This document shows positions 251 to 63,835 of a stretch of DNA of 64,000 nt, piece by piece. A program made the translations under genes and the position numbers. Where the stretch lies: the NCBI GenBank assembly GCA_963576725.1, contig OY755237.1, positions 67,467,472-67,531,471 on the forward strand. The letters run 5' to 3'. The notes under the pieces are model-generated. The model was not told the origin of the DNA. It did not search any database and saw nothing but the letters and a program-made list of their open reading frames with translations. Within the stretch, counting starts at the first letter, position 1; the number at the start of each line of letters is the position of its first letter. The DNA is from Azorinus chamasolen. Its lineage: Eukaryota > Mollusca > Bivalvia > Cardiida > Solecurtidae.

Positions 251-342
251 GTGGTGGTTGCTTAATGCAGGACGAAAGTAATGCAGAAAGCTCCTCAAGG
301 AGCTTTCTGCATAACTTTCACCCTGCATTAAGCTACCAACTG
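251..342. mobile_element. family C palindrome (TA-class hairpin MITE core)
   Basis: An imperfect palindrome about 92 bp long. The arms read GGTGGTTGCTTAATGCAG inwards, and the centre is AGCTCCTCAAGGAGCT. This is the core of family C, whose better copies (for example 8421-8614) have CAGTAAAACC-type ends flanked by TA. Clear terminal repeats are not visible here, so only the core is annotated. Confidence 0.7.
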
Positions 343-697
343 TCTTCAAATCCCCAGAATTAGACTAATTTTGGATGGTGGCTATAGAAAGGCATTACTG
401 TAGCTATCACGATAGTGTGGGAAGGTATTGATCGACTCAACAGGTATTTCCGATATGCCAATGTAATAAACATTCAACCATACTCTACGACCGACTGTGA
501 ACAATTCGCGTATACGCTAGGCAGGGAAAGGACAAACGACTGGCAAGCTTTAATTTTTAAATCCCATCGCTTTCATTCTGTTTTTTCTCATGGGATAAAA
601 CAGCAGGAGGGGTCAGGTTTGGGTGAGAAAATAAGCCCGATGAACTGTTTTGTATAGCGTTTGACTCTCAGCATGCATGGCATATTGTCCTGTCTCG

Positions 698-913
698 GCC
701 CATTCCTTTTATGAATATTTATGTAAGGAATGACATAATGGTTGCTTTCTAGATTATTTTTTATAATGCCATATGAACATAGAACATGATATCTATATCA
801 TTTCATAAGCAAACTGAGTCGCCTTGACCACCCACCTCCTATAGGAGCCGTCTTCTATGCGTCTACACTGTTTGCAAAGACGTGATAACGTGTCTCAATG
901 AAGTAAAGGGTTA
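698..913 (-). mobile_element. family A element (TTAA-class), degraded
   Basis: Layout of family A: a long arm on the left containing GAATATTTATGTAAGGAATG and a stretch near CATATGAACA, a hairpin at 809-875, then a short arm ending AAAGGGTTA. The hairpin keeps the apex CTCCTATAGGAG and the outer GCAAAC..GTTTGC, but its left inner arm has decayed. The left TTAA is lost (GGCCCATTCC). Confidence 0.7.
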
Positions 914-1204
914 GCCCATTCCAACCTTTTTTTCAAGTGTTCTTGCCATAAATTGTAACTTTTTTCATAAACCAAGTTAAATTTCATATTGAATGGATGT
1001 TTCTGTGACATTTGAAAACTAATTTGAGAAGCAAAAATAAAAAATTGCATACTCTGATCAGAGAGTCCATTTGTATTGGTCTACATTGCTTACCTATGGC
1101 CAGGGTGCAGGGCAGAACTGGGTTAAAATTGTCAACTCATTTTATTTTAGTGAATTGTTAATTGTTGTATAGAAGACAACCATGGGCCCGCAAAGGTTGA
1201 AATA

Positions 1205-1611
1205 CAGTAAACCCCCTCTAAACCGGAATTTTAGTAGAAAAGAACTTTTAGGCAGTAGGCTGCTTATCCTATTACCTCATAGGCTATTTTTAGATACAAC
1301 CTCTGAATAAATCTACCGAAAAGTAGCATTAACTAGAGAAAAGGAAACTTTTAGAATTTTGTAGTTTGAAACCATTGTGATGAATAGAGCATTTTGTCCT
1401 ATAGGAGCAAATGTTATATTTATCACAATGCTTTCACAAAGTGACCTTTACAGAGTCGTCAAAGTCGTCAATACCAGGGAATGTATTAATATATGGTGGG
1501 AGTCATGCAACAAGCTCCTCTAGAGGAGCTATCTGTGTGACATTCACCCTGCATTAAGCTGCCATTTGTCTCAAAGACCGATATTTATACTAAATTTGAG
1601 AGGTTTTGCTG
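1205..1611. mobile_element. family C element (TA-class) interrupted by a family D insertion
   Basis: The left end CAGTAAACCCCCTCTAAACC follows TA (1203-1204). The right end GAGAGGTTTTGCTG is followed by TA (1612-1613). The internal palindrome is split: GGCTGCTTA at 1257-1266 and the rest (GTCATGCAACAAGCTCCTC and its complement) from about 1497. The 226 bp between them are a family D element placed exactly at the TTAA of the C stem word GCTTAATGCAG. Confidence 0.75.
1264..1489 (+). mobile_element. family D element nested in C
   Basis: A full-length but diverged family D element: left end TTATCCTATTACCTCATAGG, body with CAACCTCTGAATAAATCTAC, hairpin GAAACCATTGTGATGAATAG to its complement with apex GTCCTATAGGAGC, and right end GGGAATGTATTAA. 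The bounding TTA(A) at 1264 and TTAA at 1486-1489 match a TTAA target duplication inside the host C element. Confidence 0.75.
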
Positions 1612-1622
1612 TATCCCATGTA

Positions 1623-1984
1623 CAGTGTTCCCTCTCTACAACGACACCCTTTGGGATACGAAGATTGTATGTGTTGTTCAGGGGCAGTTGTTATAGGGAG
1701 GGAACATCAAACATAATAAGCTTGCTTGCAGATCCCCAGATAAGGTGTATTTCGAGAACTAAAACCGTTATGCCTCCCTCAAACCCTATGTTGTGACCAC
1801 TCTTTAGAATCGTCACAAAGTGACGTTTCTAAAGAGTGGTCACAACATAGGGTTTGATGGAGGCATAAAGAAAATACGATGGAAAAAAGTTGTTTCTGGA
1901 GCCTTGTTGTTTCGGAAACAGTGACATGCGTTGTTGTAAGGAGGGAATCATTATTGAGCGGGCCGTTGTAGGGAGGGAGCACTG
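1623..1984. mobile_element. TA-flanked MITE with CAGTG ends and a 99-bp central palindrome (family H core)
   Basis: The left end CAGTGTTCCCTCTCTACAAC and the complement of the right end (CAGTGCTCCCTCCCTACAAC) form terminal inverted repeats, flanked by TA on both sides (1621-1622 and 1985-1986). Related subterminal copies of the same motif lie near 1690-1710 and 1931-1955. The centre (1769-1867) is a near-perfect palindrome containing GTTGTGACCACTCTTTAGAA. The class is mariner/pogo-like by ends and target; there is no transposase. Confidence 0.75.
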
Positions 1985-2280
1985 TACCAATGACATGAGT
2001 TCCATAGTCTAACCTAAAGGCAGAAATATGGATAGATCTGGTGCGTAAATTACTTTTCCCTCTGATCAGAGGTTCGATCTGATGGCCAGCCAAGCATCAC
2101 CGGACAGTTAATAGAGGGTTATCCAATGGCTCGTTGTTTAGGTATGTTTAACCTGTTGTAAACATTCACTTTTGTTAACAACTTTCTGACACAAACTCTT
2201 CTGCCGTTAATGTATACGACGATAAAGTATCAATTATGTTTAAAATAATAAGCTGCTATGAAACAAACGTACTGGCATTA

Positions 2281-2349
2281 TCAAACAGTGTAGACCCAGA
2301 ACAAAGGGCTTCTAGAGGAGCCCTCTTACCAGGACGTGCACTGTGTGCC
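2281..2349 (+). mobile_element. family J/K-type hairpin
   Basis: A 69-base imperfect palindrome running CAAACAGTGTAGACCCAGAA to the complementary TGCACTGTG, with apex CTTCTAGAGGAG. The outer arm word CAGTGTAGACC distinguishes the J/K group from family A (CAGAGCAGACC). Element ends are not clear. Confidence 0.55.
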
Positions 2350-2401
2350 ATTCAAAATCCTGTCAAACATTATATCCTATTGGACTGATTGCACGTTATT
2401 G

Positions 2402-2658
2402 TTAACCCTTTACTCCATGAATATTCAGGCAAGAAATAATGACATCATGAATATTAATTCACTGACATTTCATAATGGTACAACGAACAAAATAATGTTT
2501 TATTGTGACATACATTGTAGAAACAGATCTATATTAACTCAAAAGCAAACGGAGCAGACCCTGATCAGACGGCTCCTATAGGATCCGTCTGATCTGTGTC
2601 TACTCTGTTTGCAAAGGCGTAGAAAGTAGAAACTCGTATTTATGAAATAAGGGGTAAA
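2402..2658 (-). mobile_element. family A element, nearly complete
   Basis: Left end TTAACCCTTTACTCCATG, long arm with GAATATTCAGGCAAGAAATA and ATGACATCATGAATATTAAT, hairpin at 2545-2612 (68 bp; apex GGCTCCTATAGGATCC), short arm with GCAAAGGCGTAGAAAG, right end GGGGTAAA. A good example of the long-arm / hairpin / short-arm order. Confidence 0.85.
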
Positions 2659-6527: not shown

Positions 6528-6782
6528 TTTTACCCTTTACCCCGTGAATATTCATTAAGAAAATTGAATGTACATGTAGATATTAGACAATTGATTGTGT
6601 GTAATGGCAACATGAACAATGGCATGTTTCACCATGACAAAAACTCTAAAAATCGAATATATGTTAGTTCATAAAGCAAACAGAGCAGACCCTGATCAGA
6701 CGGCTCCTATAGGAGCCGTCTGATCTGGGTCTTCTCTGTTTGCAAATGTGTTAAAATGCGTATCTAAGAGGAACTGAGTTAA
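6528..6782 (-). mobile_element. family A element
   Basis: Left end TTTTACCCTTTACCCC, long arm with GTGAATATTCATTAAG, an intact 68-bp hairpin at 6676-6743 with apex GGCTCCTATAGGAGCC, and right end GAACTGAGTTAA. The hairpin shows the CCCTGATC / CCCAGATC mismatch. Confidence 0.85.
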
Positions 6783-7379: not shown

Positions 7380-7383
7380 CATA

Positions 7384-7570
7384 CAGTAAAACCTCGATTA
7401 TTCGAATTTTCGTTATAGAAGAATTTAGACCCTTTTAGGCAGGTGGCTGCTTAATGCATGGTGAAAGTCATGCAGAAAGCTCATAGAGGAGCTTTCTGCA
7501 TGACTTTCACCATGCATTAAAGATCGATAATAATACGTATTTTAGTGTTCGGATAATCGAAGTTTTACTG
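7384..7570. mobile_element. pogo/Tigger-like MITE with C-type palindrome
   Basis: The ends CAGTAAAACCTCGATTATTC and the complement CAGTAAAACTTCGATTATCC form near-perfect terminal repeats. TA flanks both sides (7382-7383, 7571-7572). The palindrome starts GGCAGGTGGCTGCTTAATGC and has a shortened apex CTCATAGAGGAG. CAGT...TCGATTAT ends with a TA target resemble pogo/Tigger elements; there is no transposase. Confidence 0.85.
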
Positions 7571-7744
7571 TATCACTAACGCTTTAGAAAATTAAATGAG
7601 GGAAAGTGCAGTCTGAAACATGAAGCAAACGACATTAACTGCAGACGAAGATTATTCGGCGAAAAAAGAGTTGTACCCATAACTCCCAGGATACATGCAT
7701 GGCACATGCGCAAAACAGTGTAAACCCAGGGACGTCACGTTTTG

Positions 7745-8050
7745 TCATACACATCACATAGCAAGCATAGATCTCCGCGTGAAATGTGTTATACACATCA
7801 CATAGCAAGCATAGATCTCCGCGTGAAATGTGTTATACACATCACATAGCAAGCATAGATCTCCGCGTGAAATGCGTTATACACATCACATAGCAAGCAT
7901 AGATCTCCGCGTGAAATGTGTTATACACATCACATAGCAAGCATAGATCTCCGCGTGAAATGTGTTATACACATCACATAGCAAGCATAGATCTCCGCGT
8001 GAAATGTGTTATACACATCACATAGCAAGCATAGATCTCCGCGTGAAATG
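7745..8050 (+). repeat. 44-bp tandem repeat, about 7 copies
   Basis: The unit begins TTATACACATCACATAGCAA and continues GCATAGATCTCCGCGTGAAA plus TGTG. Copies start at 7745, 7789, 7833, 7877, 7921, 7965 and 8009 and are almost identical, so the array is young. No hairpin motif is inside the unit. Confidence 0.95.
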
Positions 8051-9137: not shown

Positions 9138-9203
9138 GCAAACAGTTTGGATCCTGATGAGACGCCGAGTTACCCGGCGTCTAATCAGGATCCAAACTGT
9201 TTG
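9138..9203 (+). mobile_element. family B2 hairpin
   Basis: A near-perfect palindrome GCAAACAGTTTGGATCC ... GGATCCAAACTGTTTG with inner stem GACGCCGAG / CCCGGCGTC. The B2 arm follows, ending GTGGCAGCGACAGG near 9301. Confidence 0.75.
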
Positions 9204-11266: not shown

Positions 11267-11491
11267 ATAACCCATTCCTCCAAAGGCTATTTATAGATCC
11301 AGTCACTTTGAATAAATTTACCCAAAAGGAGCATTAACTACAGAAAATGAAAATTTTGGAATTTTGTAGTTTGAAACCATTGTGATAAATGGAGCATTTG
11401 CTCCTATAGGAGCAAATGCTCTATTTATCACAATGGTTTCAAAAGGTAACTTTTATAGAGGTGTAGAAAGGCGTATTCATGGAGGAAAGGG
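11267..11491 (+). mobile_element. family D element
   Basis: Left end ATAACCCATTCCTCCAAAGG, body with GAATAAATTTACCCAAAAGG, a 68-bp near-perfect palindrome at 11373-11440 with apex GCTCCTATAGGAGC, right end GGAGGAAAGGG. The right TTAA is lost. Confidence 0.85.
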
Positions 11492-12585: not shown

Positions 12586-12835
12586 TTAACCCTTCGCTTG
12601 CTATTCACGTCAATCTACCTACCTGTAAATAGTGATGACCCAGATGAGACAGCTCCTGCAGGAGCTGTCTCATCAGGGTCTGCACTATTTACAAGTTGAT
12701 TGTGCAACCAGTACACTCCACAGCAGTGATTGCACAGCGAAATACTTGTACACATTGAAGATATGTGTAATTATACAACAGGGCGTGGGTAAAGAAGGAG
12801 AAATGTATTTTAAAATTCAGCAAGAGAAGGGTTAA
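12586..12835 (+). mobile_element. family G element (250 bp), complete
   Basis: TTAA at both ends: TTAACCCTTCGCTTGCTATT ... CAAGAGAAGGGTTAA. The 68-bp hairpin at 12625-12692 runs GTAAATAGTGATGACCCAGA to TGCACTATTTAC with apex GCTCCTGCAGGAGC and the same unpaired position as A and B. The other two copies (20024-20273 and 58553-58802) are also 250 bp. Confidence 0.9.
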
Positions 12836-25237: not shown

Positions 25238-25476
25238 TTAATCATTTTCCTCATGAATATTTATATAAGAAATAATGACACGTGGAGTATTAATTAGATG
25301 CTTGTTTTATAGTTGCACGTGAACAAGAAATTTTGACTACAACAGAACATTAAGAATCAGATCTATATTATTACGTAGGCAAACAGAGCAGACCCTGATC
25401 AGACGGCTCCTATAGGAGCCGTCTGATATGGGTCTACTCTGTTTGCAAATGTATTAAAGGGCGTCTGTATCGGGAC
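25238..25476 (-). mobile_element. family A element
   Basis: TTAATCATTTTCCTCATG, long arm with AAGAAATAATGACACGTGG, intact 68-bp hairpin at 25379-25446 with apex GGCTCCTATAGGAGCC, short arm GCAAATGTATTAAAGGGCG. The right TTAA is not preserved. Confidence 0.8.
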
Positions 25477-28247: not shown

Positions 28248-28369
28248 GATGTCGTGCAATGAAGAAACCTCTCCAGGAGATTTCTGCACTATACATCTGT
28301 CCTGTATTAAGCGTCCACGTGTATCTAAAGACGCATAATTTTATCCATTAACTCTCTACTCCATAAATA

Positions 28370-28573
28370 CAGTAAAACCTCTCTACAACGGCCACTAAAT
28401 TACATCAAGTATTTTGTGTTAAATGCAGGTGGCTACTTAAAGCAAGGTGAAAGGAAAACAGAACGCTCCTATAGGAGCGTTCTGTTTTACTTTCACCTTG
28501 CTTTAAGCAGCCACCTGCCCTAAATACCAACTAATTAACACAATTTAGTGGCCGTTATAGAGAGGTTTTTCTG
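28370..28573. mobile_element. family E element (204 bp) nested in A
   Basis: CAGTAAAACCTCTCTACAAC ... GTTATAGAGAGGTTTTTCTG, TA both sides. Subterminal GGCCACTAAATT in both arms. The 94-bp palindrome at 28424-28517 has apex GCTCCTATAGGAGC. Confidence 0.9.
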
Positions 28574-28678
28574 TAAGTCTTTCTACACCTTTACAAACAG
28601 AGTAGACCCAGAGCAGACGGTTTCAACCATGATCTAAAAGTCCTGTATTCACGTGCCATTATAAGAATTAATCTAATA

Positions 28679-36778: not shown

Positions 36779-37242
36779 CTCAACCCTTTACATTCATATA
36801 AACCACATTTCCACGCCTTTGCAATCAGAGTGGTCCCAGATCAGACGGCTCCTACGGGAGCCGTCTAATCAGGGTCTGCTCTGTTTGCGTATGTCATTAT
36901 AACAGAACTAGCTTTACAGTTTCTACCAGTACCAGCCTATCTTGTGTAATATTCCTTTACATGTACAGTAAAACCTCTCTATAACGGCCATTTAATAGTG
37001 TTAATTAGTTGGTATTTAGGGCAGGTGGCTGCTTAAAGCAAAGTGAAAGTAAAACAGAACGCTCCTATAGGAGCGTTCTGTTTTACTTTCACATTGCTGT
37101 AAGCAGCCACCTGCCTTTAACACAAAATATTTGATGTAATTTAGTGGCCGTTATAGAGAGGTTTTACTGTAGATATATTTAGCTAATAGATATTGATGAT
37201 GTTAATATTTCTTACTTGATGATTCAACAAGGAAAGGGCCAA
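36779..37242 (+). mobile_element. family A element carrying an E insertion
   Basis: CTCAACCCTTTACATTCATA, hairpin 36821-36888 (68 bp; apex GGCTCCTACGGGAGCC), long arm to CCTTTACATG, E insertion, then AGCTAATAGATATTGATGAT and GGAAAGGGCCAA. Confidence 0.8.
36966..37169. mobile_element. family E element (204 bp), intact, nested in A
   Basis: Terminal repeats CAGTAAAACCTCTCTATAAC + GGCCA match over at least 25 bp, TA both sides. 94-bp palindrome at 37019-37112 with apex GCTCCTATAGGAGC. Same length as the copies at 28370 and 55661. Confidence 0.95.
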
Positions 37243-37313: not shown

Positions 37314-37690
37314 CAGTAGAATCATCCTTAATCCATTGCATCAGAGGCTATTTTTAGATCCAACCTCTTTGAATAAATCTACCAAAAAGGAGCTCCGAAA
37401 AGGAGGATAAACGAGAGAAAAGGATTTTTTAAAAAGATTTTTGTAGTTCTGAAACCATTGTGATAAATAGAGCATTTGCTCCTATAGGAGCAAATGCTCT
37501 ATTTATCACAATGGTTTCACAAAGTGCCTTTTACAGAGTCGTCAAAAGTCGTCAATATGAGGGAAAGGGTTGAGCCGCAATTCATTTATTGAACATAGGA
37601 GCCTAAAAAAGCAGGTGGTTGTTTGAAGTAGGACAGAAGCTCCTATAGGAGTTTTCTGTATTACTTATGCCATGCATTAAACTAAATGTG
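37314..37690. mobile_element. family C host split by D
   Basis: CAGTAGAATCATCCTTAA, D insertion, then GCCGCAATTCATTTATTGAA, AGCAGGTGGTTGTTTGAAGT and palindrome with apex CTCCTATAGGAG. The right end is not found. Confidence 0.65.
37328..37573 (+). mobile_element. family D element nested in C
   Basis: TTAATCCATTGCATCAGAGG ... GAGGGAAAGGGTTGA. The 68-bp palindrome 37451-37518 pairs at all 34 positions. Confidence 0.85.
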
Positions 37691-43455: not shown

Positions 43456-43684
43456 TTAACCTATTACCTCATAGACTATTTTTAGATACAACCTCTTTGA
43501 ATAAATCTACTTAAAAGGAGCATTATCTAGAGAAAAGGAAAATTTTAGAATTGTGTAGTTTGAAACCATCGTGATAAATAGAGCATTTGCTCCTATAGGA
43601 GCAAATGCTCTATTTATCACAATGGTTTCACAAAGTGACTTTTACAGAGTCGTCAAAAGTCGTCAATATGAGGGAATGGGTTAA
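43456..43684 (+). mobile_element. family D element (229 bp), complete
   Basis: TTAACCTATTACCTCATAGA ... GAGGGAATGGGTTAA. 68-bp palindrome 43562-43629 with one mismatch. Same length as 60617-60845. It follows a broken A hairpin (GATCATACGGCTC). Confidence 0.9.
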
Positions 43685-53177: not shown

Positions 53178-53219
53178 ATATTTGTTTTCGCTTTGTTTTG
53201 TCTCAGCGTCTGTATTGTC

Positions 53220-53361: not shown

Positions 53362-53432
53362 TGGCTATATTTGTTATCAGTTTTGTTAGAAAAAGTAATG
53401 TTACATATCAAGAATGTTTGATTTTTACAACC

Positions 53433-53505: not shown

Positions 53506-53558
53506 TTTATCTTTTTTTGATATACATGTATACATATGGGTATCGAACTATCGATATA

Positions 53559-53757
53559 CAGTAAAACCTCTCTATAACGACCACTAAATTGTGTTAATTA
53601 TTTGGTATTTATTGCAGGTGGCCGCTTAAAGCAAGGTGCAAGGTTAAAGCTCCTATAGGAGCGTTCTGTTTTATTTTCACCTTGCTTTAAGCGGCCACCT
53701 GCCTTTTACACAAAATAATTGATGTAATTTAGTGGTCGTTATTGAGAGGTTTTACTG
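53559..53757. mobile_element. family E element (199 bp)
   Basis: CAGTAAAACCTCTCTATAAC ... GTTATTGAGAGGTTTTACTG; TA both sides. The left palindrome arm has a small deletion near the apex (GGTTAAAGCTCCTATAGGAG). Confidence 0.9.
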
Positions 53758-53931
53758 TATATCTTTCGTGAGTCAGAGGATGTATAGTCGGGGCAAGTGA
53801 ATGTCGTAATATACAATAGGACCTATTTATAGACAGAGAACGCGAACTAATTAGTCTGAACTAATCATATTCGCGCATTTTTATACCAGTAATTACATCT
53901 ATTCACCAACTGTTTTATACCTTTAATAAAC

Positions 53932-54004
53932 GGGGAATTAGCTCAAGTGGTAGAGCGCTCGCTTAGCATGTGAGAGGTACCGGGATCGATACCCGGATTC
54001 TCCA
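53932..54004 (+). tRNA. tRNA-Ala(AGC)
   Basis: Consensus sequence. The only nearby terminator is GTTTTA, a T4 run nine bases downstream. Flanks are unlike the duplicated unit. Confidence 0.95.
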
Positions 54005-54259
54005 AGAATAAGTTTTACCACGGTTCAGGTTTTAAATGGAAGATTTATCACTCAAAAATTAACATTTTATAAACGTTGAACACTGTATAAAAATAATCCA
54101 AAGAATTGAATACCATATGTTTTCATAGTTTGTCTATTAAAACTCGAATGCTGTAAAGCTTTCAATCTTTTACCTGACAGAGCAGCTTTTTCAGAGTTTG
54201 ATTAGAGCCTGTTCTGTATGTTTATAAAACTGTAGGAATAGAGGTATGTGTTTTCATAA

Positions 54260-54326
54260 GCAAACTGTGCAAACTCAGATCAAATGGCACTTACTGAAGT
54301 CAACTGATTTGGTCTGCTCTGTTTGC
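54260..54326. mobile_element. A/K-type hairpin, degraded
   Basis: GCAAACTGTGCAAACTCAGA ... GGTCTGCTCTGTTTGC; apex ACTTACTGAAGTC. Confidence 0.5.
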
Positions 54327-54404
54327 AATGATGACAACACATTTCCCCATGGAGGAAATGGACAAAAAGCATGCTTGTCTAACAATGTAGACGCTGATAG
54401 GATA

Positions 54405-54546
54405 ATTGGCAATATCCTGGAATAGCCACCACAGCTATAATCGCAATATCTCGGAATGAGTGTATACTTAAATACCAATGGAGGCAATATCAAAGGTATT
54501 CCGATTCATTCCGTTGTGTGGGGAGCTATTCTAGGATATTGCCAAT
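54405..54546. repeat. 142-base foldback with ATTGGCAATATCCTGGAATA arms
   Basis: The left arm and its complement (GCTATTCTAGGATATTGCCAAT) are 22 bp with one mismatch. Inside, CAATATCTCGGAATGAG and GGAATACC words repeat weakly. Not related to A-E. Confidence 0.65.
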
Positions 54547-54621
54547 GTCGAGAATGGACAGTCAGAACTGGAGGAAAGTGTCAGTTGTCAATATTAAAAC
54601 AGTAGATAATGCAGTATGACT

Positions 54622-54694
54622 GGGGAATTAGCTCAAGTGGTAGAGCGCTCGCTTAGCATGTGAGAGGTACCGGGATCGATACCCGGATTCTCCA
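54622..54694 (+). tRNA. tRNA-Ala(AGC)
   Basis: Consensus sequence, T5 seven bases downstream. Confidence 0.95.
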
Positions 54695-54858
54695 ATTATA
54701 TTTTTATCATGTTTAGTGTTACAAGATAGGAGATGTATCATTCCAAAATGTTTTTCTTATAAACTTTAAACTCTCCATCAGATGGAATTACAAAATTGTC
54801 TAAACAATGATATGTATTTTTTTTATGGTTTGTATAAAGCTTTGGGAAATGAATTCGA

Positions 54859-55033
54859 CAGAACCTCTCTAAAGCGACCACTTAATAAAGTAACATGAAT
54901 GTGCTCGAAAGTTGTTGTTTAATGCAGGATGAAAGTAATCCTATGGGAGCTTTCTGCATAACTTTCATCCTGCATTAAGCTTCCATCTGTCTTTAAAACC
55001 CAGTCAGTCTGGTCGTCTTATGGACTTTTTCTG
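54859..55033. mobile_element. family C element
   Basis: CAGAACCTCTCTAAAGCGAC ... GGTCGTCTTATGGACTTTTTCTG. The left palindrome arm is shortened (GATGAAAGTAATCCTATGGG). Confidence 0.75.
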
Positions 55034-55162
55034 TGATTGCAAATGTAACAGGACAGCGTTAATTGTACACTAGTAAATGTATAATATTAGGGATATTTTC
55101 TATCGGTAGTCAGATAAACCTGCGTCACTTATCAGGCACAGTATACATACATAAACCACATA

Positions 55163-55363
55163 GAGTAAAACCTCTCTAAACCCGGACGTTCAATTTAGTA
55201 TAAATATCAGTCTTAGAGACAGTTGGCAGCTTAATGCAGGATGAAAGTCACGCAGAAAGCTCCTCTGGGAGCTTTCTGCGTGACTTTCACCCTGCATTAA
55301 GCACTTTCCTAAACTTATCTAAATTCTTCACTACTAGAATTCCGGTTTAGAGTGATTTTACTG
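55163..55363. mobile_element. family C element (201 bp)
   Basis: GAGTAAAACCTCTCTAAACC ... GGTTTAGAGTGATTTTACTG. Palindrome 55220-55304 with paired change CACGCAGAAAGC / GCTTTCTGCGTG replacing CATGCAG / CTGCATG. Apex GCTCCTCTGGGAGC. Confidence 0.85.
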
Positions 55364-55503
55364 TATACATTAGATTGGATATGCATTAAAAACAAGCATC
55401 TCTTTCAATATTTTTGTAAATACATGTAATAAGTTGAGTCTGATTGATGTAAGCAAATGCGTTACGATATAATTCTTATAGTACCACAAAAGCCAATCTC
55501 TTC

Positions 55504-55956
55504 TTAACCCATTACCTCATAGGGACGCATTTTTACTCCTACACAAACAGAGTAGACCCAGATCAGACGACCCCTGTTGTAGCCGTCTAATCAGGGTCCG
55601 CTCTGTTTTCTTGTGACATAATGCGGATATGGTTTTACAGTTACTATCATGTAACGTATACAGTAAAACCTCTCTATAACGACCACTAAACTACATCAAG
55701 TATTTTGTGTTATAGGCAGATGGATGCTTAAAGCAAGGTGGAAGTAAAACAGAACGCTCCTGTAGGAGCGTTCTGTTTTACTTTCATCTTGCTTTAAGCT
55801 GCCACCTGTCTTAAATGCTAACTAAGTAACACAATTTAGTGGCCGTTATAGACAGATTTTACTGTACCTCGTTCGGAACGGTAATATAAAGCATCAGCTG
55901 ATTGGTATTCATAAGTAATTATTTCTAACATGAATATTCATGAGGTAATGGATTAA
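55504..55956 (+). mobile_element. family A element carrying an E insertion
   Basis: TTAACCCATTACCTCATAGG (an end shared with family D), hairpin 55542-55609, TTTTACAGTTACTATCATG, E insertion, TAACATGAATATTCATGAGG, TAATGGATTAA. Confidence 0.8.
55661..55864. mobile_element. family E element (204 bp) nested in A
   Basis: CAGTAAAACCTCTCTATAAC ... GTTATAGACAGATTTTACTG; TA both sides; apex GCTCCTGTAGGAGC. Confidence 0.92.
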
Positions 55957-56080
55957 TGTGAAGCTAGAACGAAATGTTTCATTTGAAAAGTGTGCAGACC
56001 CAGATCAGAGACTCGGCTTCTGTCCAATACCTATATCACCCGTCAGGTAAAATATTGAAGATGGCGATATGTGTCATTCA

Positions 56081-56324
56081 TTAACCCTTTACTCCATAAA
56101 TATTCATATAAGAAATGCTGATATTATGAATATTAATTAAACCAATTTTTAAAATGATATAATAATACAGTGAAAATTTTGCAGAATCTGTAGAATCAGA
56201 TCAATATAATTCCATTAAGGAAACAGAGCAGACCCTGATCAGACGGTTTCTGTAGGAGACATCCGATCTGAGTCTATTCCGTTTTCAATGCGTAGAAAGG
56301 CATATTTATGGAGTAATGGGTAAA
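56081..56324 (-). mobile_element. family A element
   Basis: TTAACCCTTTACTCCATAAA, ATATTCATATAAGAAATG, hairpin 56219-56286 (apex GTTTCTGTAGGAGAC), right end GAGTAATGGGTAAA. Confidence 0.75.
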
Positions 56325-56628
56325 TGTCACATGACGTAAGAGTTGCCATGGTTGGTCGATGCATATAAATCAAAGTGATGGAATTACTGTTAGTAGGTAC
56401 TTATACCCTTTGTACAATATATTTTGCATGGCTAGTCAAAGCTATAAAAATCGTGTTCCGGTACAATTATACGAATTCAGCTAATGAATATGTCTGGTGT
56501 CGGTTCTACAATGAATAGTGAACAGGTAAAGGGTTTAGTAATATCAATATATTATATGTTAGCATTTCTGTTATGATCATATAACACCATCTCTGGTGTT
56601 GTACTTTATAGTATATAAATTATGTATG

Positions 56629-56858
56629 TTTAATCCATTACCTCATAGGCTATTTTTAGATACAACCTCTTTGAATAAATCTACCGAAGAGGAGCATTTA
56701 CTAGAGAAAAGGAAAAGTTTCGAATTTTGTAGGCTGAAACCATTGTGATAAATAGAGCAGTTGCTCCTATAGGAGCAAATGCTCTATTTATCACAATGGT
56801 TTCACAAAGTGACATTTACAGAGTCGTCAAAAGTCGTAAATATGAGGGAATAGGTCAA
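56629..56858 (+). mobile_element. family D element (230 bp)
   Basis: TTAATCCATTACCTCATAGG ... GAGGGAATAGGTCAA; 68-bp palindrome 56736-56803 with one change (GCAGTTGC against GCAAATGC). The right TTAA (now TCAA) is shared with the following A element. Confidence 0.88.
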
Positions 56859-57085
56859 TCCCTATTCGTGCAAGAAATAATGATAAAATTAATATTAATT
56901 AAATTATCTTTTATAATGGCATATAAAGACATGCCATGTTTTGCTTAGGCAGAAACCGTAGATTCATATCTATCTTATACCATAAGCAAACAGAGCAGAC
57001 CCTGATCCTAAAGGAGCCGTCTGATCTGGGTGTACTGTGTTTGCAAGTGCGTGAAAAGGCATTTATATGAAGAAAAGGGTAAAGA
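56855..57085 (-). mobile_element. family A element with arm deletion
   Basis: TCAATCCCTATTCGTGCAAG, TTATAATGGCATATAAAGAC. Hairpin 56986-57044, in which GCAAACAGAGCAGACCCTGA + TCC is joined to TAAAGGAGCCGTCTGATCTG, so the left inner arm is missing. Right end AGAAAAGGGTAAAG. Confidence 0.75.
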
Positions 57086-57234
57086 ACCAATAAGATGTGG
57101 TATCATAAAAATACATGTACGTTATTTTAACCTTTGAACTCTGAATTATCAAAGTGGACTGTCCAGTCAGTGTCGTACATGTACAGATAGTTCAATCCGG
57201 TATGAAATGGTTATATCTGAGAGGAGCTGGAATG

Positions 57235-57482
57235 GCAAACAGTGCAGATTCTGGCCATGGGCTCCGCTATGAGCCCTCTCATCTGGGTCTATATGTTTGT
57301 TTTGCAAATGCCAGTAAATGTACATTAGTTTGTTTTAATGACAATCAGTGCAGTCCCTGATCAGGTGGCTCAACTATATGAATCATCTGATCTTGGTCTA
57401 CATCGTTTGAATAACAAACAGTGTAGACCCTATAAATCAGGCTCCTCTAGAACCCCCCTGATCTTGGTCCACCCTGTTTGCA
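57235..57482 (-). repeat. three successive family K hairpins
   Basis: 57235-57299 (GCAAACAGTGCAGATTCTGG; centre GGGCTCCGCTATGAGCCC), 57341-57409 (ACAATCAGTGCAGTCCCTGA) and 57414-57482 (ACAAACAGTGTAGACCC; centre GGCTCCTCTAGAACCC). Spacers of 41 and 4 bases. The outer right arm GCTAGTACACTCGTTTCG is K-type. Confidence 0.65.
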
Positions 57483-57667
57483 AATGCTAGTACACTCGTT
57501 TCGTGTACATAATGTCAGTGTGTCAAGTATCACATTATCTTGTCTCGTATCATTTTACTTCATATATAGGGCAATAAAATGCAGAGAAATTAAAAATTAA
57601 ATATTTTTTTCCATAATTAGTGAAGCGAGGCAGACTAGTAGAAAGGACAGTTGTAGCGATAGCCACC

Positions 57668-57740
57668 GGGGAATTAGCTCAAGTGGTAGAGCGCTCGCTT
57701 AGCATGTGAGAGGTACCGGGATCGATACCCGGATTCTCCA
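57668..57740 (+). tRNA. tRNA-Ala(AGC)
   Basis: Consensus sequence, T6 eleven bases downstream. Confidence 0.95.
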
Positions 57741-57891
57741 AATTATTATTTTTTATAATTGTTTTAATATTATAAGTGAGTAACAAAATAAATGAATGAC
57801 ATAGTAATGGTGTCTATGGAAATTGCAGCAAGTCATAAGTGAAACAGATACGCAACTTAAAACTTACACACTACAAATACAGTTGATTATA

Positions 57892-58095
57892 CAGTATAAC
57901 CTCTCTTAACCTGAATTCTAGTAGATAAGAAATTAGACACTTATAGGCTGGTGGCTGCTTAATGCAGGGTGAAAGTCATGCAGAAAGCTCCTAGAGGAGC
58001 TTTCTGCATGACTTTCACCCTGCATTAAGCTGCCACCTGTCTCCAAGACCGATATTCATACTAAATTTAACGGCCGGTTAAGAGAGGTTTTACTG
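57892..58095. mobile_element. family C element (204 bp), intact
   Basis: CAGTATAACCTCTCTTAACC ... GGTTAAGAGAGGTTTTACTG; TA both sides. Palindrome 57948-58037 nearly perfect (stem GTGAAAGTCATGCAGAAAGC; apex GCTCCTAGAGGAGC). Confidence 0.92.
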
Positions 58096-58164
58096 TATTG
58101 TATTTATCATATTGCGATCTGTACCTTTGATTGCACAGTGAATGTAACTTTTTGCCATTTTTCA

Positions 58165-58304
58165 GATACCATTGAACAGCCCTTTACGCCTTTGCAAACA
58201 GAATATACCCACACCATGGTCTGCTCTGTTTGCTTATCAAATGCTATAGACCTGATTCTACAGTTTGTGTCATGGTACACTACTCCCCCTGTACATAACA
58301 TTAA
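58165..58304 (+). mobile_element. family A element with collapsed hairpin
   Basis: CCCTTTACGCCTTTGC, GCAAACAGAATATACCCACA joined to CCATGGTCTGCTCTGTTTGC, GATTCTACAGTTTGTGTCAT, ending at TTAA. Confidence 0.7.
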
Positions 58305-58500
58305 CAGTTAAGCGCGACCTGACTCGTATCTGCAAACAGATTGGATCCAGATGAGACGACGAGTTACTCGACGCCTCATCATGATCCAAGATATTTCACA
58401 CACGGTGTACAGTCTCTCAAACACTTGTACAAATCAGAATTCAGTAAAAATGCAACAGATCAGAGTTTTGACAGGCATATTATTTTCAGCACGAGGGCAC
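58301..58500 (+). mobile_element. family B element
   Basis: TTAACAGTTAAGCGCGACCT, hairpin 58332-58398 (stem GACGACGAG / CTCGACGCC), long arm CACGGTGTACAGTCTCTCAA, GACAGGCATATTATTTTCAG. Confidence 0.7.
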
Positions 58501-58868
58501 AAGTTATGCAGAAAGCTCCTATAGGAGCTCTCGGTATTACTTTTAACCTGCATTATCCCTTCGCTTGCTATTCACGTCAATATACCTACCTGTAAATAGT
58601 GAAGACCCAGATGAGACAGCTCCTGCAGGAGCTGTCTCATCAGGGTCTGCACTATTTACAAATTGATTGTGCAACCAGTGCACTCCACAGCAGTTATCGC
58701 CCAGCGAAATACTTGTTCACAGTGAAGATATATGTAATTATACAACAGGACATGGGTAACGAAGGAGAAATGTATTTTAAAATTCAGCAAGAGAAGGGTT
58801 AACATACCAGGCCTTACAGACCCATAATTAGACATCTTTGTGATGGCCACTGAAGACAGATTCTACTG
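58496..58868. mobile_element. family C remnant split by G
   Basis: AGTTATGCAGAAAGCTCCTA, TAGGAGCTCTCGGTATTACT, TTTAACCTGCATTA, G insertion, then ACATACCAGGCCTTACAGAC and GTGATGGCCACTGAAGACAG + ATTCTACTG. The left end is missing. Confidence 0.6.
58553..58802 (+). mobile_element. family G element (250 bp) nested in C
   Basis: TTATCCCTTCGCTTGCTATT ... CAAGAGAAGGGTTAA; 68-bp hairpin 58592-58659 with apex GCTCCTGCAGGAGC. Confidence 0.9.
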
Positions 58869-58920
58869 AATACATTCATTATTTCTAACATGAATAGTCA
58901 CAAGGTTAAGGGGGTAAATA

Positions 58921-59135
58921 CAGTAAAACCCCTCTAATGCGACCACCAAAAAGGGGCATAATTCACAGTGGCAAGGGCAGGTGGTTGCTTAATGCAGGAC
59001 GAAAGTTATGCAGAAAGCTCCTATAGGAGCTTTCTGCATAACTTTCGTCCTGCATTAAGCAACTACCTGCTTATGAAAACAGCCATGTTTGTTTAAGTGG
59101 TCGCATTAAGTGGTCGCATTAGTGGGGTTTTACTG
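58921..59135. mobile_element. family C element
   Basis: CAGTAAAACCCCTCTAATGC ... GGTCGCATTAGTGGGGTTTTACTG, TA on the left. The 95-base palindrome 58976-59070 is almost perfect (apex GCTCCTATAGGAGC). AAGTGGTCGCATT is duplicated in tandem in the right terminal region. Confidence 0.9.
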
Positions 59136-59330
59136 TAAGTATCATTATCAGAAAACGGTTTCGGCTTCTGATTTATCTTTTCATATTTCCGTTTGACCAA
59201 CGTTTATTATCTTTTGTTAAACTATGTGATAACTCAGTTTGAAACAATAAATTATTTATATTTCAATTGTAGTAATGTTAACTCGATATTTCGGATACAC
59301 GTTGAATATACATGTATAGTAGATACAACA

Positions 59331-59403
59331 GGGGAATTAGCTCAAGTGGTAGAGCGCTCGCTTTGCATGTGAGAGGTACCGGGATCGATACCCGGATTCT
59401 CCA
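59331..59403 (+). tRNA. tRNA-Ala(TGC)
   Basis: Only one change from the AGC consensus: A34 to T (loop TTTGCAT). Acceptor and box sequences are consensus. T6 eleven bases downstream. It arose separately from 53433, or that copy gained its extra acceptor change later. It lies on + under the longest reverse open frame of the window, which is therefore spurious. Confidence 0.94.
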
Positions 59404-59650
59404 AACGAATATTTTTTAACGCTTCCAAGTCTCCAGATAAATATTCCAGAAATATAAATAAAATAGATTCTAATAAAAGACAAATAATGAAAGATTGTCC
59501 AACGTTTTGGGGCACCATTTCGAAAATCCTATAGACAATGTACAGCTGTAAATATGTAAAAAGCACCAACAAAACAATTACGTTTTTCACATTACAATGA
59601 AACAGTATCCTTTTAATTCTTTCACCGCCGAAGTTGCCAATGCAGCACGA

Positions 59651-59720
59651 CAAACAGTGTAGCCCAAAGTCAGACGCCACCCTTTCAAGGCGGCGTCTGA
59701 TCAGGAACTTTGCTGTTTGC
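59651..59720. mobile_element. I-type hairpin
   Basis: ACAAACAGTGTAGCCCAAAG ... GAACTTTGCTGTTTGC with stem CAGACGCC / GGCGTCTG and apex ACCCTTTCAAGGCG. Flanks unrecognised. Confidence 0.6.
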
Positions 59721-59775
59721 CTCAACCTCTAGTTCTATGATGTCTGCCAATCATTCCTTTGAATTTTGCATTTAT

Positions 59776-59989
59776 AGTAGAACCTATCTTAAGTGATAAT
59801 CAAAAACAGGTATAATACTGGACCTATAAGACAGGAGGTAGCTTAATGCAGGTCAAAGGTGTTGAATATACTTTGAATATACATGTATAGTATATACAAC
59901 TTTTGCCTTGCATTAAGCAACCACCTGCTTTTTTAAAACTGCTATATTCAATAAATGAATGGGCGCTTATGACAGGACAGGACCTACTG
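59776..59989. mobile_element. family C element (AGAACCT subtype) with replaced apex
   Basis: GTAGAACCTATCTTAAGTGA ... GACAGGACAGGACCTACTG. The outer stem GGTAGCTTAATGCAGGTCAA pairs with TTTGCCTTGCATTAAGC, but the inner stem and apex are replaced by about 40 bases (59861-59900) containing TTGAATATACATGTATAG. Confidence 0.8.
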
Positions 59990-60149
59990 TATTTGTAATA
60001 TTTTATCTAGATTCTCTTCTCTTCTCTTTTATCGAAATGATTTAACAAAAAATTGGGCTTGGTATTATAGTCGACAATTAGAAATTTGGCGTCAAAGAAG
60101 TAAAACGTTTGCAATAAGGTGTTTATTCGATGTTTCAATTGAAATTATG

Positions 60150-60272
60150 TATATGTATGAAATGTATATAACTATGTAACTATGTGACGGTCATCTGTAC
60201 TAACATTGTTTAAATGGCAAAATATATTGTATTGGTCGATTTGCCAATAAACTTTGAAACTTGAAACTTGAT
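60150..60272 (+). mobile_element. possible 3' end of a non-LTR retrotransposon
   Basis: GCCAATAAACTTTGAAAC followed by TTGAAACTTG: a poly(A)-signal-like AATAAA and a short GAAACTT tail, the kind of 3' terminus seen on 5'-truncated LINEs and related SINEs. No reverse-transcriptase coding remains upstream. Confidence 0.4.
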
Positions 60273-60297
60273 ATACATGTACAGTTGTACATGTAAT

Positions 60298-60512
60298 TTA
60301 ACCCTTTCGCTGCCAATGCCGGATCTGTGATTACCTATGCAAACAGTTTGGATACAGATGAGACGCCGAGTAACTCGGCGTCTCATCAGAATCAAAACTG
60401 TTTGTTACTGTTACTATGTTTTTGAAACAAAAATGAAGAAAATCAAAAGAATGAAAATGTGTAACAGACGACAAAGTTAGCAGACGACAGAGTATGGAAG
60501 CGAAAGGTTTAA
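60298..60512 (+). mobile_element. family B2 element (215 bp), complete
   Basis: TTAACCCTTTCGCTGCCAAT ... GTATGGAAGCGAAAGGTTTAA. Hairpin 60339-60405 (centre GACGCCGAGTAACTCGGCGTC), right arm with two GCAGACGACA words. Confidence 0.88.
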
Positions 60513-60616
60513 TAAGTTCATATGTATCCATGTGACATTTACACAATTTATTTACATGTTATTATTACTCACACAGTCATTATTTTAGGCATGCATATTC
60601 ATAAAAATAGAGGTGA

Positions 60617-60845
60617 TTAACCCATTACCTCATAGGCTATTTTTAGATCCAACGACTTTGAATAAATCTACCGAAAAGGAGCATTAACTAGAGAAAGGGA
60701 ATATTTTAGAATTTTGTAGTTTGAAACCATTGTGATAAATAGAGCATTTGCTCCTATAGGAGCAAATGCTCTATTCATCACAATGGTTTCACAAAATGTT
60801 TTATACAGAGTCGTCAAAAGTCGTCAATATCAGGGAATGGGTTAA
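60617..60845 (+). mobile_element. family D element (229 bp), complete
   Basis: TTAACCCATTACCTCATAGG ... AGGGAATGGGTTAA; 68-bp palindrome 60723-60790 with one change. It ends 24 bp before the next tRNA copy. Confidence 0.92.
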
Positions 60846-60869
60846 TGTGTAGTTGCATATGTGACAACT

Positions 60870-60942
60870 GGGGAATTAGCTCAAGTGATAGAGCGCTCGT
60901 TTAGCACGTGAGAGGTACTGGGATCGATACCAGGATTCTCCA
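60870..60942 (+). pseudogene. diverged tRNA-Ala(AGC) copy
   Basis: Full length with AGC and G3-U70, but five substitutions: G18-region GTGATAG, anticodon stem CTCGT and loop end CAC, and T stem CTGGG...CCAGG, which opens one pair and weakens another. Box B is changed from GTACCGGG to GTACTGGG. T5 lies 17 bases downstream. It could be a weak gene; I lean to pseudogene. Confidence 0.6.
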
Positions 60943-61112
60943 AAGTTTATCGTATATAATTTTTATATCAAGCTATCATGTACATATCATATTTCAAAAT
61001 ATTTATACAATTATATACAAAAAGGATATGAACTATAACACAATTTAAAGTATGGCTTGCGACAAGAAGCTTCAATAAATCTTAGTACGTGAGTTGTCAT
61101 AAAAAAAATATT

Positions 61113-61185
61113 TGGAGAATCCGGGTATCGATCCCGGTACCTCTCACATGCTAAGCGAGCGCTCTACCACTTGAGCTAATTCCCC
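61113..61185 (-). tRNA. tRNA-Ala(AGC)
   Basis: Consensus sequence with the duplicated-unit flank on its left (AATTATATACAAAAAGG, GCTTCAATAAATCTTAGTAC). T8 downstream on the minus strand. Confidence 0.95.
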
Positions 61186-61284
61186 ATACAAAAGTTAGGT
61201 CTACATTGTATCAAGTTGACATTTCTTCGGCAAATAGTCACACGTCCTTGTCCACTATAATGGTTTTATTTGCTTGACTTTGCA

Positions 61285-61345
61285 ATCCGGGTATCGATCC
61301 CGAAACCGCTCACATGCTAAGCTCTACCACTTGAGCTAATTCCCC
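61285..61345 (-). pseudogene. tRNA-Ala pseudogene, two deletions
   Basis: Lacks the 3' acceptor strand and six bases of the anticodon stem (GCGAGC), and has changes in the T stem (CGAAACCGC). The D arm and 5' acceptor are intact. Confidence 0.85.
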
Positions 61346-61562
61346 ATTTGTTGATAATTATCGTCTACAGAAATACTGAGACACTTCTACAAAGTGTAGT
61401 TCCAGTTCATCCGATGTGTTGGAATGAAATATCTAATAGGGTAAGCGACTGAGTTTGATCAATACTGCTTGCTAATAAAACCATTTCAATGGACAGGGGA
61501 GGGGCGGGGTTTACTTGCCGAAGAATTCTCAACTTGATACAATGTAGACTTAACGTTTGTAT

Positions 61563-61635
61563 GGGGAATTAGCTCAAGTGGTAGAGCGCTCGCTTAGCAT
61601 GTGAGAGGTACCGGGATCGATACCCGGATTCTCCA
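61563..61635 (+). tRNA. tRNA-Ala(AGC)
   Basis: Consensus sequence. The DNA before it (CTCAACTTGATACAATGTAG, ACTTAACGTTTGTAT) is the complement of the sequence that follows the minus-strand copies, so this copy lies in an inverted duplicate of the unit. T5 downstream. Confidence 0.95.
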
Positions 61636-61796
61636 AATATTTTTATGATAATTCACGCACCAAAATTTATTGAAGCAAACCATAGTTTATATTTGATGTG
61701 TAATATTTCAAATTCTATTTGCATATAAATGTATTTTGAAATATAAGATTTACATGTGGGTTTGATATATTTACATGTACGATAAAAATAAAAAAT

Positions 61797-61854
61797 ATCG
61801 ATCCTGTACCTCTCACATGCTTAGCGAGCGCTCTACTACTTGAGCTAATTCCCC
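61797..61854 (-). pseudogene. tRNA-Ala pseudogene, truncated
   Basis: The 3' acceptor strand and half of the T stem are gone (ATCGATCCTGTACC). U33 in the anticodon loop is A (TAAGCAT), and one D-arm base is changed. Confidence 0.8.
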
Positions 61855-61904
61855 ATTTGTTGATACCGAGGCACTTCTACAAAGTGTGGACCCAGTGTAG
61901 ACCC

Positions 61905-62052
61905 ATTTTAGAAAGTAAAGAAACATATCGGTCAAATTAATTTAGCAAACAGAGCAGACCCTGATCAGACGGCTCCTATAGGAGCCGTCTGATCTGGGTC
62001 TACTCTATTTGCAAATGCATGAAAAGGTGTTTATATGAGGGAAAGGGGTTAA
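61905..62052 (-). mobile_element. family A' element, left-truncated
   Basis: CCATTTTAGAAAGTAAAGAA, intact 68-bp hairpin 61945-62012 (apex GGCTCCTATAGGAGCC), short arm, right end GGGAAAGGGGTTAA. The missing left part is replaced by tRNA-unit DNA. Confidence 0.8.
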
Positions 62053-62059
62053 AATTAAT

Positions 62060-62270
62060 TCAATACACGTTCACTGTAGGCAAATTAATATCTCCAATGG
62101 CAGTTTGGAGGAAAAAGTTTTGTAAATGCTATTTATTCCCCAGTTGTGTCTTATCAGTGCCTAATTTTCATTAGAATAGATTATAACAAAATAGGAACCA
62201 ATTAATCTTGTATATTTCAATAGCAGTATGTAATAGGTGATAGTAGCACCATTCGAAGATTTACGATGTA
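62060..62270. other. no recognised feature
   Basis: About 210 bases between the A' element and the last tRNA remnant; no structure seen. Confidence 0.4.
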
Positions 62271-62274
62271 CCAG

Positions 62275-62334
62275 TGGGAGGCTAGCTCAAGTGGTCGATC
62301 ACCCGAGGTACCAGGATCGCTACCCGGATTCCCA
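62275..62334 (+). pseudogene. tRNA-Ala relic
   Basis: GGGAGGCTAGCTCAAGTGG still shows the D arm and box A, and GGTACCAGGATCGCTACCCG the T arm. The anticodon arm is deleted (GTCGATCACCCGAGG). Confidence 0.75.
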
Positions 62335-62499
62335 GTGATTTAACGTATTTTTTTGTCAGTTTAAATTCAATAATTAAACTTTTAGGCTCAATGTAAGTCC
62401 TTCATTATCTGTTTATCAGAAAAAAACATATAGATGCACTTTATGAAGAACATTTATCTTTGCAATTATGTTTGTAAGGCTTACCCTTAATTGTGTATA

Positions 62500-62704
62500 C
62501 AATACACTCTGTCCAAAGCGGCCATTTATTTATTGCACCTATGAATATTAAAACAACAGGCAGTTGCTTAATGCATGGTAAAAGTAATGCAGAAATATCC
62601 TATTGGAAATTTCTGCATTACTTTTGACCTGCATTAAGCTCTACCACCGACCTTACCAACCCGTTATTGGACCTCTTTTTGAGGGCCGCCTAAGATATGT
62701 TCAG
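62500..62704. mobile_element. family C element, diverged ends
   Basis: ACTCTGTCCAAAGCGGCCAT ... GAGGGCCGCCTAAGATATG. Palindrome 62557-62648 with apex ATCCTATTGGAAAT. Confidence 0.65.
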
Positions 62705-62838
62705 CTGTGTCTACATATTCGGGGACTGATTGCAAGGCTGTACTATCAACGTTATTCAACCATTAGAATTGAATATAACTACTGTTTTAAAATTGTAAAA
62801 ACAAATCTTTTATTATTTTAGATAAATACTATCAGAGT

Positions 62839-62897
62839 ATCAAATAGTTTGGACCCCAGTGTTACTCGGCGTCTCATCTGGATCTAAACTGTTTGCA
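62839..62897 (-). mobile_element. family B hairpin, left inner arm deleted
   Basis: TCAAATAGTTTGGACCC is joined to CAGTGTTACTCGGCGTCTCA and GATCTAAACTGTTTGC. Confidence 0.6.
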
Positions 62898-62924
62898 AAG
62901 GTTATCACGAGTACACGCTGTATA

Positions 62925-63128
62925 CAGTAGAATCTGTCTTAAGCGACCGTCAAAAGAGGTCCGATTATTAGTCTGCAAGACAGGAGGTATGTTAACGCAG
63001 GTCAAGACTAATGCAGAAAGCTCCTATAGGAGATTTCTACTTTACGTTTGCCCTGCATTAAGCAACCATCTGCTTTTCAAGATTCCTAGGTCCAATGAAT
63101 GAATGACCACTTAGGACAGGCTCTAATG
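62925..63128. mobile_element. family C element (AGAACCT subtype, 204 bp)
   Basis: CAGTAGAATCTGTCTTAAGC ... GACCACTTAGGACAGGCTCT. Palindrome from about 62982 to 63074, apex GCTCCTATAGGAGA. Confidence 0.75.
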
Positions 63129-63139
63129 TATGTATTGCA

Positions 63140-63620
63140 CTTTGCGCCCAAATCTCGTATAGGTAAACTACATGTAGGGAGATATACTAATATAATAAGT
63201 ACATATTCACAAAGATCCTTAGGAATAATACATCCATTGGGCAACTTCAGGAGAATAAGTATGTCTGTCTCAATCTGTAGTAAACTACGGATAAAATGTT
63301 CAACCAATGACTCTCAGAATAGTTAATAACATGCATCATCTATATTGTTTTCTACCGCGAGGGTAGTTTTTCATTCAGTGACCGTTATGAGAACAAGGGA
63401 TAATCAAGAATTTTCTTTACAAATTCTCTATTAGGAGCTTTATATAATAATTAATTAAAAATAAATAAAATAATAGATAAACTACAGCGCCGGATGAATA
63501 AGGTCTGCACGCCAATCAATGCCTTGCTACTGACTTATATGTGAAGACATGAGTGTTTGGTCATGGCACCAACTGTAGACTTAGAACTATACTGTTCCAT
63601 GTGCATTTTACAAGTAAAAT
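63140..63620. other. mostly unrecognised
   Basis: No hairpin element. GTTTGGTCATGGCACCAACT at 63555-63574 resembles part of an A long arm, the only homology seen. Confidence 0.4.
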
Positions 63621-63631
63621 ATGTATTAGTG

Positions 63632-63835
63632 TAGTAAAACATCTCTATAACGACCATTAAATTACATCAAGTATTTTATGTTAAAGGCATGTGGATGCTT
63701 AAAGCAAGGTGAAAGTAAAACAGAACGCTCCTATAGGAGCGTTCTGTTTTACTTTCACCTTGCTTTAAGCAATCACCTGCCCAAAATACCAACTAATTAA
63801 CGCAATTTAGTGGTCGTTATAGAGGGGATTTACTG
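63632..63835. mobile_element. family E element (204 bp)
   Basis: TAGTAAAACATCTCTATAAC ... GTTATAGAGGGGATTTACTG. Palindrome 63687-63780 with apex GCTCCTATAGGAGC. Confidence 0.88.

Follow-up and report, generated by a model that had tools for sequence, protein, structure and literature searches.

The 64 kb window analysed here (C3:67467472-67531471, contig OY755237.1) belongs to the 1.72 Gb genome of the bivalve Azorinus chamasolen, assembled in 137 contigs. It holds many miniature inverted-repeat transposable elements (MITEs), each with a near-perfect hairpin of ~64-96 bp, and two kinds of these elements, with different ends and unrelated hairpin arms, carry the same 14-bp palindrome, GCTCCTATAGGAGC, at the hairpin tip. 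The genome also contains hybrid hairpins, in which the arm of one class meets that of another at this tip. We favour, giving it about an even chance, the reading that the tip is common because it spread by exchange between hairpins whose cores are modular. Outside the window, a sample of 20 segments of 10 kb at fixed places on six contigs (200 kb) was analysed as well.

Elements with a common hairpin tip

Hairpins of score ≥14 number 74 in the window and 124 in the sample. From these lists we defined eleven arm groups, which take in 189 of the 198 hairpins, with nine others: H1 (50), H4 (37), H3 (29), H2 (22), H4b (15), H1b (13), H6 (9), H7 (8), H1c (2), H1d (2) and H8 (2). Clustering by flanks was useless, giving a single component of 189. 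Groups H1, H3 and H1b are families A, D and G of a preliminary description of this DNA, which had assigned them TTAA ends, and H4 and H4b are its families C and E, with CAGT ends and TA targets; the contrast holds in our consensuses. The window contains the following copies:

60617..60845, + strand: family D (H3) TTAA element, full length, ends TTAACCCATT / AATGGGTTAA, hairpin ~60722-60791, exact tip 60750-60763
43456..43684, + strand: family D (H3) TTAA element, exact tip 43589-43602
37447..37522, + strand: family D (H3) hairpin, exact tip 37478-37491, DNA fold -37.5 kcal/mol, z -14.5
11370..11443, + strand: family D (H3) hairpin, exact tip 11400-11413
56735..56804, + strand: family D (H3) hairpin, exact tip 56763-56776
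2402..2657, + strand: family A (H1) TTAA element, right end decayed, tip 2572-2585 with one mismatch
25379..25446, + strand: family A (H1) hairpin, exact tip 25406-25419, folded
6676..6743, + strand: family A (H1) hairpin, exact tip 6703-6716
12586..12835, + strand: family G (H1b) TTAA element, tip GCTCCTGCAGGAGC 12652-12665
58919..59137, + strand: family C (H4) Tigger-like element, TA flanks, CAGTAAAACC ends, hairpin 58977-59070, exact tip 59017-59030, fold -55 kcal/mol, z -19.1
36964..37171, + strand: family E (H4b) Tigger-like element, exact tip 37061-37074, folded
28368..28575, + strand: family E (H4b) Tigger-like element, exact tip 28465-28478
53557..53759, + strand: family E (H4b) Tigger-like element, exact tip 53649-53662
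63686..63781, + strand: family E (H4b) hairpin, exact tip 63727-63740
57890..58097, + strand: H4 hairpin with a second Tigger-like end type (our typing), tip GCTCCTAGAGGAGC 57987-58000
7382..7572, + strand: H4 hairpin with a third Tigger-like end type (CTCGATTATTCGAA), tip 7479-7492 with two mismatches
9139..9203, + strand: H2 hairpin, a counter-example with A-type arms and another tip, of GCCGAGT/ACTCGGC type (this copy reads ACCCGGC)

Consensus ends are TTAACCC...GGGTTAA for H1 (best 24 of 50 copies, plus clusters of 18 and 8), H3 (best 24 of 28 copies) and H1b (13 copies), and the flanks have no consensus. Two body types or more occur among H1 elements; one further H1 cluster, of three copies, gave no clean ends, and a cluster of four H2, H1c and H1d copies was a mixture that was left out and does not establish the ends of H2 elements. 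The H4 and H4b hairpins lie near the centre of elements with TA flanks and CAGT ends, in about five end types by our own typing, with a cluster of 25 that mixes several. These ends and targets are presumably those of Tigger elements. With lengths of ~200-260 bp, 49,215 exact H1 cores genome-wide and no Pfam match over the cut-off in the 7 frames tried of the window's 22 frames of ≥90 codons, the elements are very abundant non-autonomous MITEs, A, D and G of piggyBac type (TTAA) and C and E of pogo/Tigger type (TA/CAGT).

The genome gives 110 matches to PF13843 (DDE_Tnp_1_7), which we take to be the piggyBac class, with open frames of up to 695 aa, and at least 151 to PF03184 (DDE_1), which we take to be the pogo/Tigger class, many with open frames; these are domain matches alone, none tied to A, D or G in the first case or to C or E in the second. 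Examples are C6:75565597 and C5:94222348, both with open frames, for DDE_Tnp_1_7 and C3:19842795 for DDE_1. The two transposase classes of the preliminary description thus fit the element ends and are both represented in the genome, while no autonomous copy is tied to the elements.

The tip itself has 58 matches at ≤2 mismatches in the window, where 100 shuffles gave 0.09 on average, and 99 in the sample, of which 25 are exact. Genome-wide there are 178,273 exact copies and none of the reversed-pattern control. All nine places at which one apex motif had been reported carry it, eight exactly and the one at 2572 with one mismatch. A hairpin of one of five classes was called at 113 of 157 tips (window and sample), and most of the other 44 look, by eye, like decayed copies. 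GCTCCTATAGGAGC tops H1, H3, H4 and H4b, H1b carries a variant with GC at the centre, and H2, H1c, H1d, H6, H7 and H8 have other tips. The part common across classes is GCTCCTNNAGGAGC, which in the folded strand gives a GCTCC stem and a TNNA loop. All four hairpins tested by DNA folding formed a single long hairpin with a 4-base loop (z -12.7 to -19.1), two of them with internal mismatches.

Arms were compared outside the tip in 36 pairs, with 500 shuffles each. H1, H1b and H2 are homologous, as are H4 and H4b; H1 and H1b also agree in two positions that do not pair, 17 and 24 from the apex. No alignment was found for H1-H3 (local P 0.30), H1-H4 (0.99) or H3-H4 (0.98), and the values for H3-H4b (0.084 local, 0.016 tip-anchored) are not significant across 36 pairs. 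The earlier statement that the arms do not align therefore stands for A, D and C/E among each other and fails for C with E and for A with G. Calling the families unrelated was an overstatement: homology between the hairpin-side ends of the H1 and the H3 element extends over 44 gapless columns (0/500 shuffles), so that A and D are relatives with different arms and the same tip, and the truly unrelated case is A/D versus C/E alone. As judged from these alignments, the tip is all that A/D and C/E have in common. Conversely, A-type arms occur with other tips, in H2 by alignment and in H1c and H1d by eye only.

A foldback palindrome, H7 (ends like CTGGGTCCATGC), appears to have inserted at GGGTC inside H1 or H2 arms at L014:524, L016:1106 and window 52438, and by our reading would be a second element that targets these hairpins.

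Such elements are like known piggyBac-type and pogo/Tigger-type MITEs in being short, with short inverted ends, TTAA or TA at the ends, very many copies and no coding match in the open reading frames tested; they differ in the long hairpin, off-centre in A, D and G and central in C and E, in the tip common to both kinds, and in tip-joined hybrids. Foldback or palindromic elements have long inverted arms and extrudable hairpins. The same features are present here, but the hairpin makes up an inner module flanked by transposon ends of the ordinary kind. According to excerpts of PMC11707139, piggyBac and piggyBat ends likewise combine a TTAA target with nearby palindromes, but those are short protein sites, of 19 bp in piggyBac, while the hairpins here, of ~68-74 bp, start ~39-55 bp from the end in the consensuses. 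Among open-licence PMC papers, screened by title and abstract start, we found no description of a tip common to transposon superfamilies.

Hybrid hairpins joined at the tip

Hybrids joined at the tip between all three arm classes are new in this analysis. In the assembled contigs, from which all hybrids are known, exact places number 22 for H1/tip/H4, 23 for H1/tip/H3 and 15 for H3/tip/H4, spread over many contigs, with 0 for the reversed patterns. We read 26 loci, 20 from the 45 places with an H1 arm and six from the 15 H3/tip/H4 places, and classed 19 as clear, three as complex, one as unclear and three as false. By our reading, a clear hybrid has one element's arm with its adjoining sequence, then the tip, then the arm and adjoining sequence of the other; an element end is visible on many, not all, sides (L054 and L064 have none on one side). 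Clear cases are 5 of 10 for H1/H4 (L040, L042, L043, L044, L048; L039 is complex and L047 unclear), 8 of 10 for H1/H3 (L049, L050, L052, L053, L054, L056, L057, L058; L051 and L055 are complex) and 6 of 6 for H3/H4. The false ones, L041, L045 and L046, are H4 arms with chance changes that had passed for H1/H4 hybrids. The hybrids differ in end and body types, which argues for many separate events. Two loci hold a piece of arm inserted between tips: L039 reads H4 arm, tip, piece of H1 arm, tip, H4 arm, and L055 is built likewise within H3; both look like a switch there and back.

The position of the join was left free in a second scan, with gaps of 0-30 between the arms. H1-left to H4-right, for which a longer H1 word was used that excludes the three false loci, gave 48 places, 12 of which are one repeat family with the same join. 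Of the remaining 36, 18 are in tip register (gap 14, ≥9/14 tip bases) and every other gap has at most two (binomial P 7e-18 if all gaps are taken as equally likely, which is a crude null). H3-left to H4-right gave 45 places, three of them identical and dropped, and 19 of 42 are in tip register, the next gap having four; the H3 word is short (8 bases), and part of the off-register joins are due to chance. H2-left, which has another tip, meets H4-right at the apex in one place, where ~3-5 are expected from the sample. The preliminary description had raised an exchange of hairpin tips between families, and the tip-joined hybrids for all three class pairs, with the gap controls, support it.

Three of the 12 copies with the same H1/H4 join were read (L065, L066, L067). 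They are a composite repeat with no clear TTAA or CAGT ends, and hold further H1-like hairpin pieces and internal repeats.

Proposed exchange at the tip and its alternatives

The mechanism that we propose treats the hairpin core as evolving in separable modules (element end, arm and tip). The hairpins would extrude or stall replication, a strand would leave one hairpin at the tip, and it would continue on another hairpin with the same tip, the joining being by template switching or by microhomology-mediated joining or repair. The tip, with its GCTCC stem and TNNA loop, would thus be the exchange point; arms and ends could be swapped between families, and the tip would remain common. Both the molecular step and exchange, in place of descent or selection, as the cause of the common tip are proposed from the joins. 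There are precedents for such joining: excerpts of PMC3855049 describe Rad51 template switching at hairpins in yeast inverted repeats, and excerpts of PMC5139131 place the junctions of one clam satellite in palindromes, the longer of which holds 13 of the 16. These systems are alike in having breakpoints or template switches at palindromes, but the junction here is a sequence common to unrelated transposon families, and chimeras of element halves are left.

Several observations weigh against exchange. When arms were scored separately (window and loci L001-L028), 166 of 178 tips had the same class on both sides (H1 group 94, H4 37, H3 19, H4b 16), 12 had one unassigned arm, and there were no mixed-arm hairpins; one hairpin, L023_220, is H4b by the classifier, with a left arm and left end that by eye resemble another Tigger end type. 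Hybrids with an H1 arm are rare: the 22 and the 23 exact places, some of them false, stand against all the exact H1 cores of the genome, about one per two to three thousand. About half of the joins in the gap scans lie outside tip register. The H2 control is weak, as H2 is rarer than H4, with 8 versus 37 half-tips in the sample (24 versus 23 in the window). No hybrid class was shown to have spread as a mobile family, and the 12-copy join sits in a larger composite repeat. Among the satellites examined in PMC5139131, as far as its excerpts go, just the clam one had non-random junctions. Finally, the hybrids could merely follow from a tip that was already common for another reason.

One such reason would be function: the tip, or a hairpin with a TNNA loop, would be the target of a single protein or be required in a hairpin step as both kinds of element spread, and would have been selected in each family. 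The occurrence of the tip on three unrelated arm classes and the presence of both transposase families in the genome fit this, as do the 19-bp palindromes of piggyBac ends and the binding of palindromic sequence by cysteine-rich domains that excerpts of PMC11707139 report. The divergence of the copies speaks against it. For copies found by their arms alone, mean tip/arm identity, relative to a palindromic reference that depresses arm values at non-pairing positions, is 0.833/0.860 in H1 (n=87), 0.960/0.930 in H1b (n=12), 0.970/0.959 in H3 (n=17), 0.859/0.826 in H4 (n=39) and 0.943/0.918 in H4b (n=15), i.e. differences of -0.027 to +0.033. With an oriented consensus (n=87), the apex dinucleotide of H1 diverges at 0.38 and 0.32, against 0.09 at other A/T sites and 0.28 at CpG, and tip G/C at 0.158, against 0.130 for non-CpG G/C overall; in H4 the apex values are 0.31 and 0.44, against 0.12 at other A/T sites and 0.46 at CpG, all such values being a gauge of decay after insertion and not of constraint on source copies. 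The less diverged classes have one raised apex position (H3 0.06, H1b 0.17, H4b 0.13), the other being 0. The apex is thus among the most variable positions in H1 and H4, the two most diverged classes, not among the most conserved. The preliminary description had proposed looking for a peak of conservation at the apex: there is none, and the tip decays like the arms. Its suggested binding site for one protein is unsupported, given this near equality, the variable apex and the A-type arms that carry other tips, as in H2; in Rfam, too, only tRNA matches in the window exceed the gathering score. We consider selection for function unlikely, well behind exchange.

In H1 hairpins such as those at window 2890, 3814 and 10272, the central dinucleotide is highly variable between perfect 12-bp flanks. 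By our count, it is AT in 26 of 52 plus-strand H1 cores with all 24 flanking bases exact, among the matches listed; either hypermutation or several source copies would account for this. In H1 (59 vs 15.6) and H4 (84 vs 21.9), compensated double changes are more numerous than independence predicts, with no clear excess in H4b (3 vs 1.6), H3 (0 vs 1.1) or H1b (1 vs 0.1); subfamily structure confounds the excess, and we make no claim of fold-back correction of the arms.

A second alternative, to our mind a little less probable still, is nesting, in which a small TTAA-flanked palindrome carrying the tip would have entered an older, palindromic Tigger-like element at its apex TTAA. A TTAA does lie 31 bp from the apex in both H4 and H4b arms, and the predicted empty site, CAGGTGGNNGCTTAAGCNNCCACCTG, has 13 exact empty-looking occurrences genome-wide, which are collapsed H4 hairpins; of the ten read (L029-L038), nine are bounded on both sides by Tigger-like ends, which are of several types, and L035 lies beside a recognisable right end alone. 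However, a control collapse at the inner TGCA of the same arms is commoner, with 76 places for a shorter pattern of 18 fixed bases as against 22, which gives the empty sites the look of hairpin deletions of the ordinary sort. Nor does the H4 arm outside the tip show similarity to those of the TTAA families. Mere coincidence, of a tip that is short and GC-rich, is the most improbable of the explanations: the tip has just 7 independent bases, and A and D may have it by descent, leaving one coincidence (A/D with C/E), but in this post hoc search the probability is 6e-5 (even bases) to 2.5e-4 (tip composition) for one given pair, 9e-4 to 4e-3 for any of 15 pairs and 7e-8 to 1e-6 for any triple.

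Exchange at the tip thus ranks first for us. The usual view is that a MITE family evolves by descent, inside a single transposase class; here an internal module is common to two kinds of element, and dozens of junctions at the module are kept in the genome. It is possible, at somewhat less than an even chance, that a short hairpin tip serves as a recombination module by which non-autonomous transposons swap halves across superfamilies, making new arm-end combinations genome-wide, including elements with one TTAA and one CAGT end. With ~178,000 exact tips, the genome offers a natural experiment on the places at which hairpins undergo template switching and microhomology joining, and is also informative on how non-autonomous elements could gain new ends.

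Other features of the window

Over the whole window, no Rfam family except tRNA scores above the gathering score, hence no microRNA family. MicroRNA models make up most of the sub-threshold matches at 58800-62100, several on both strands, and a microRNA precursor was rejected; no histone stem-loop was found there. The tRNA matches in Rfam number 18, and ARAGORN predicts 16 tRNA-Ala genes (14 AGC, 2 TGC) in two groups, at 13814-15735 and 48071-61636, on both strands. Near tRNA-Ala genes lie repeats of GGTAAAAATGCC type in opposite orientation, ~1 kb apart (49404-49554 and 50514-50568). Two tandem arrays are present, one at 7743-8050 with seven copies of a 44-bp unit (98% matches) and one at 21200-21855 with nested units of 19-140 bp of AGTACCCGGAGCGTCTGACG type.

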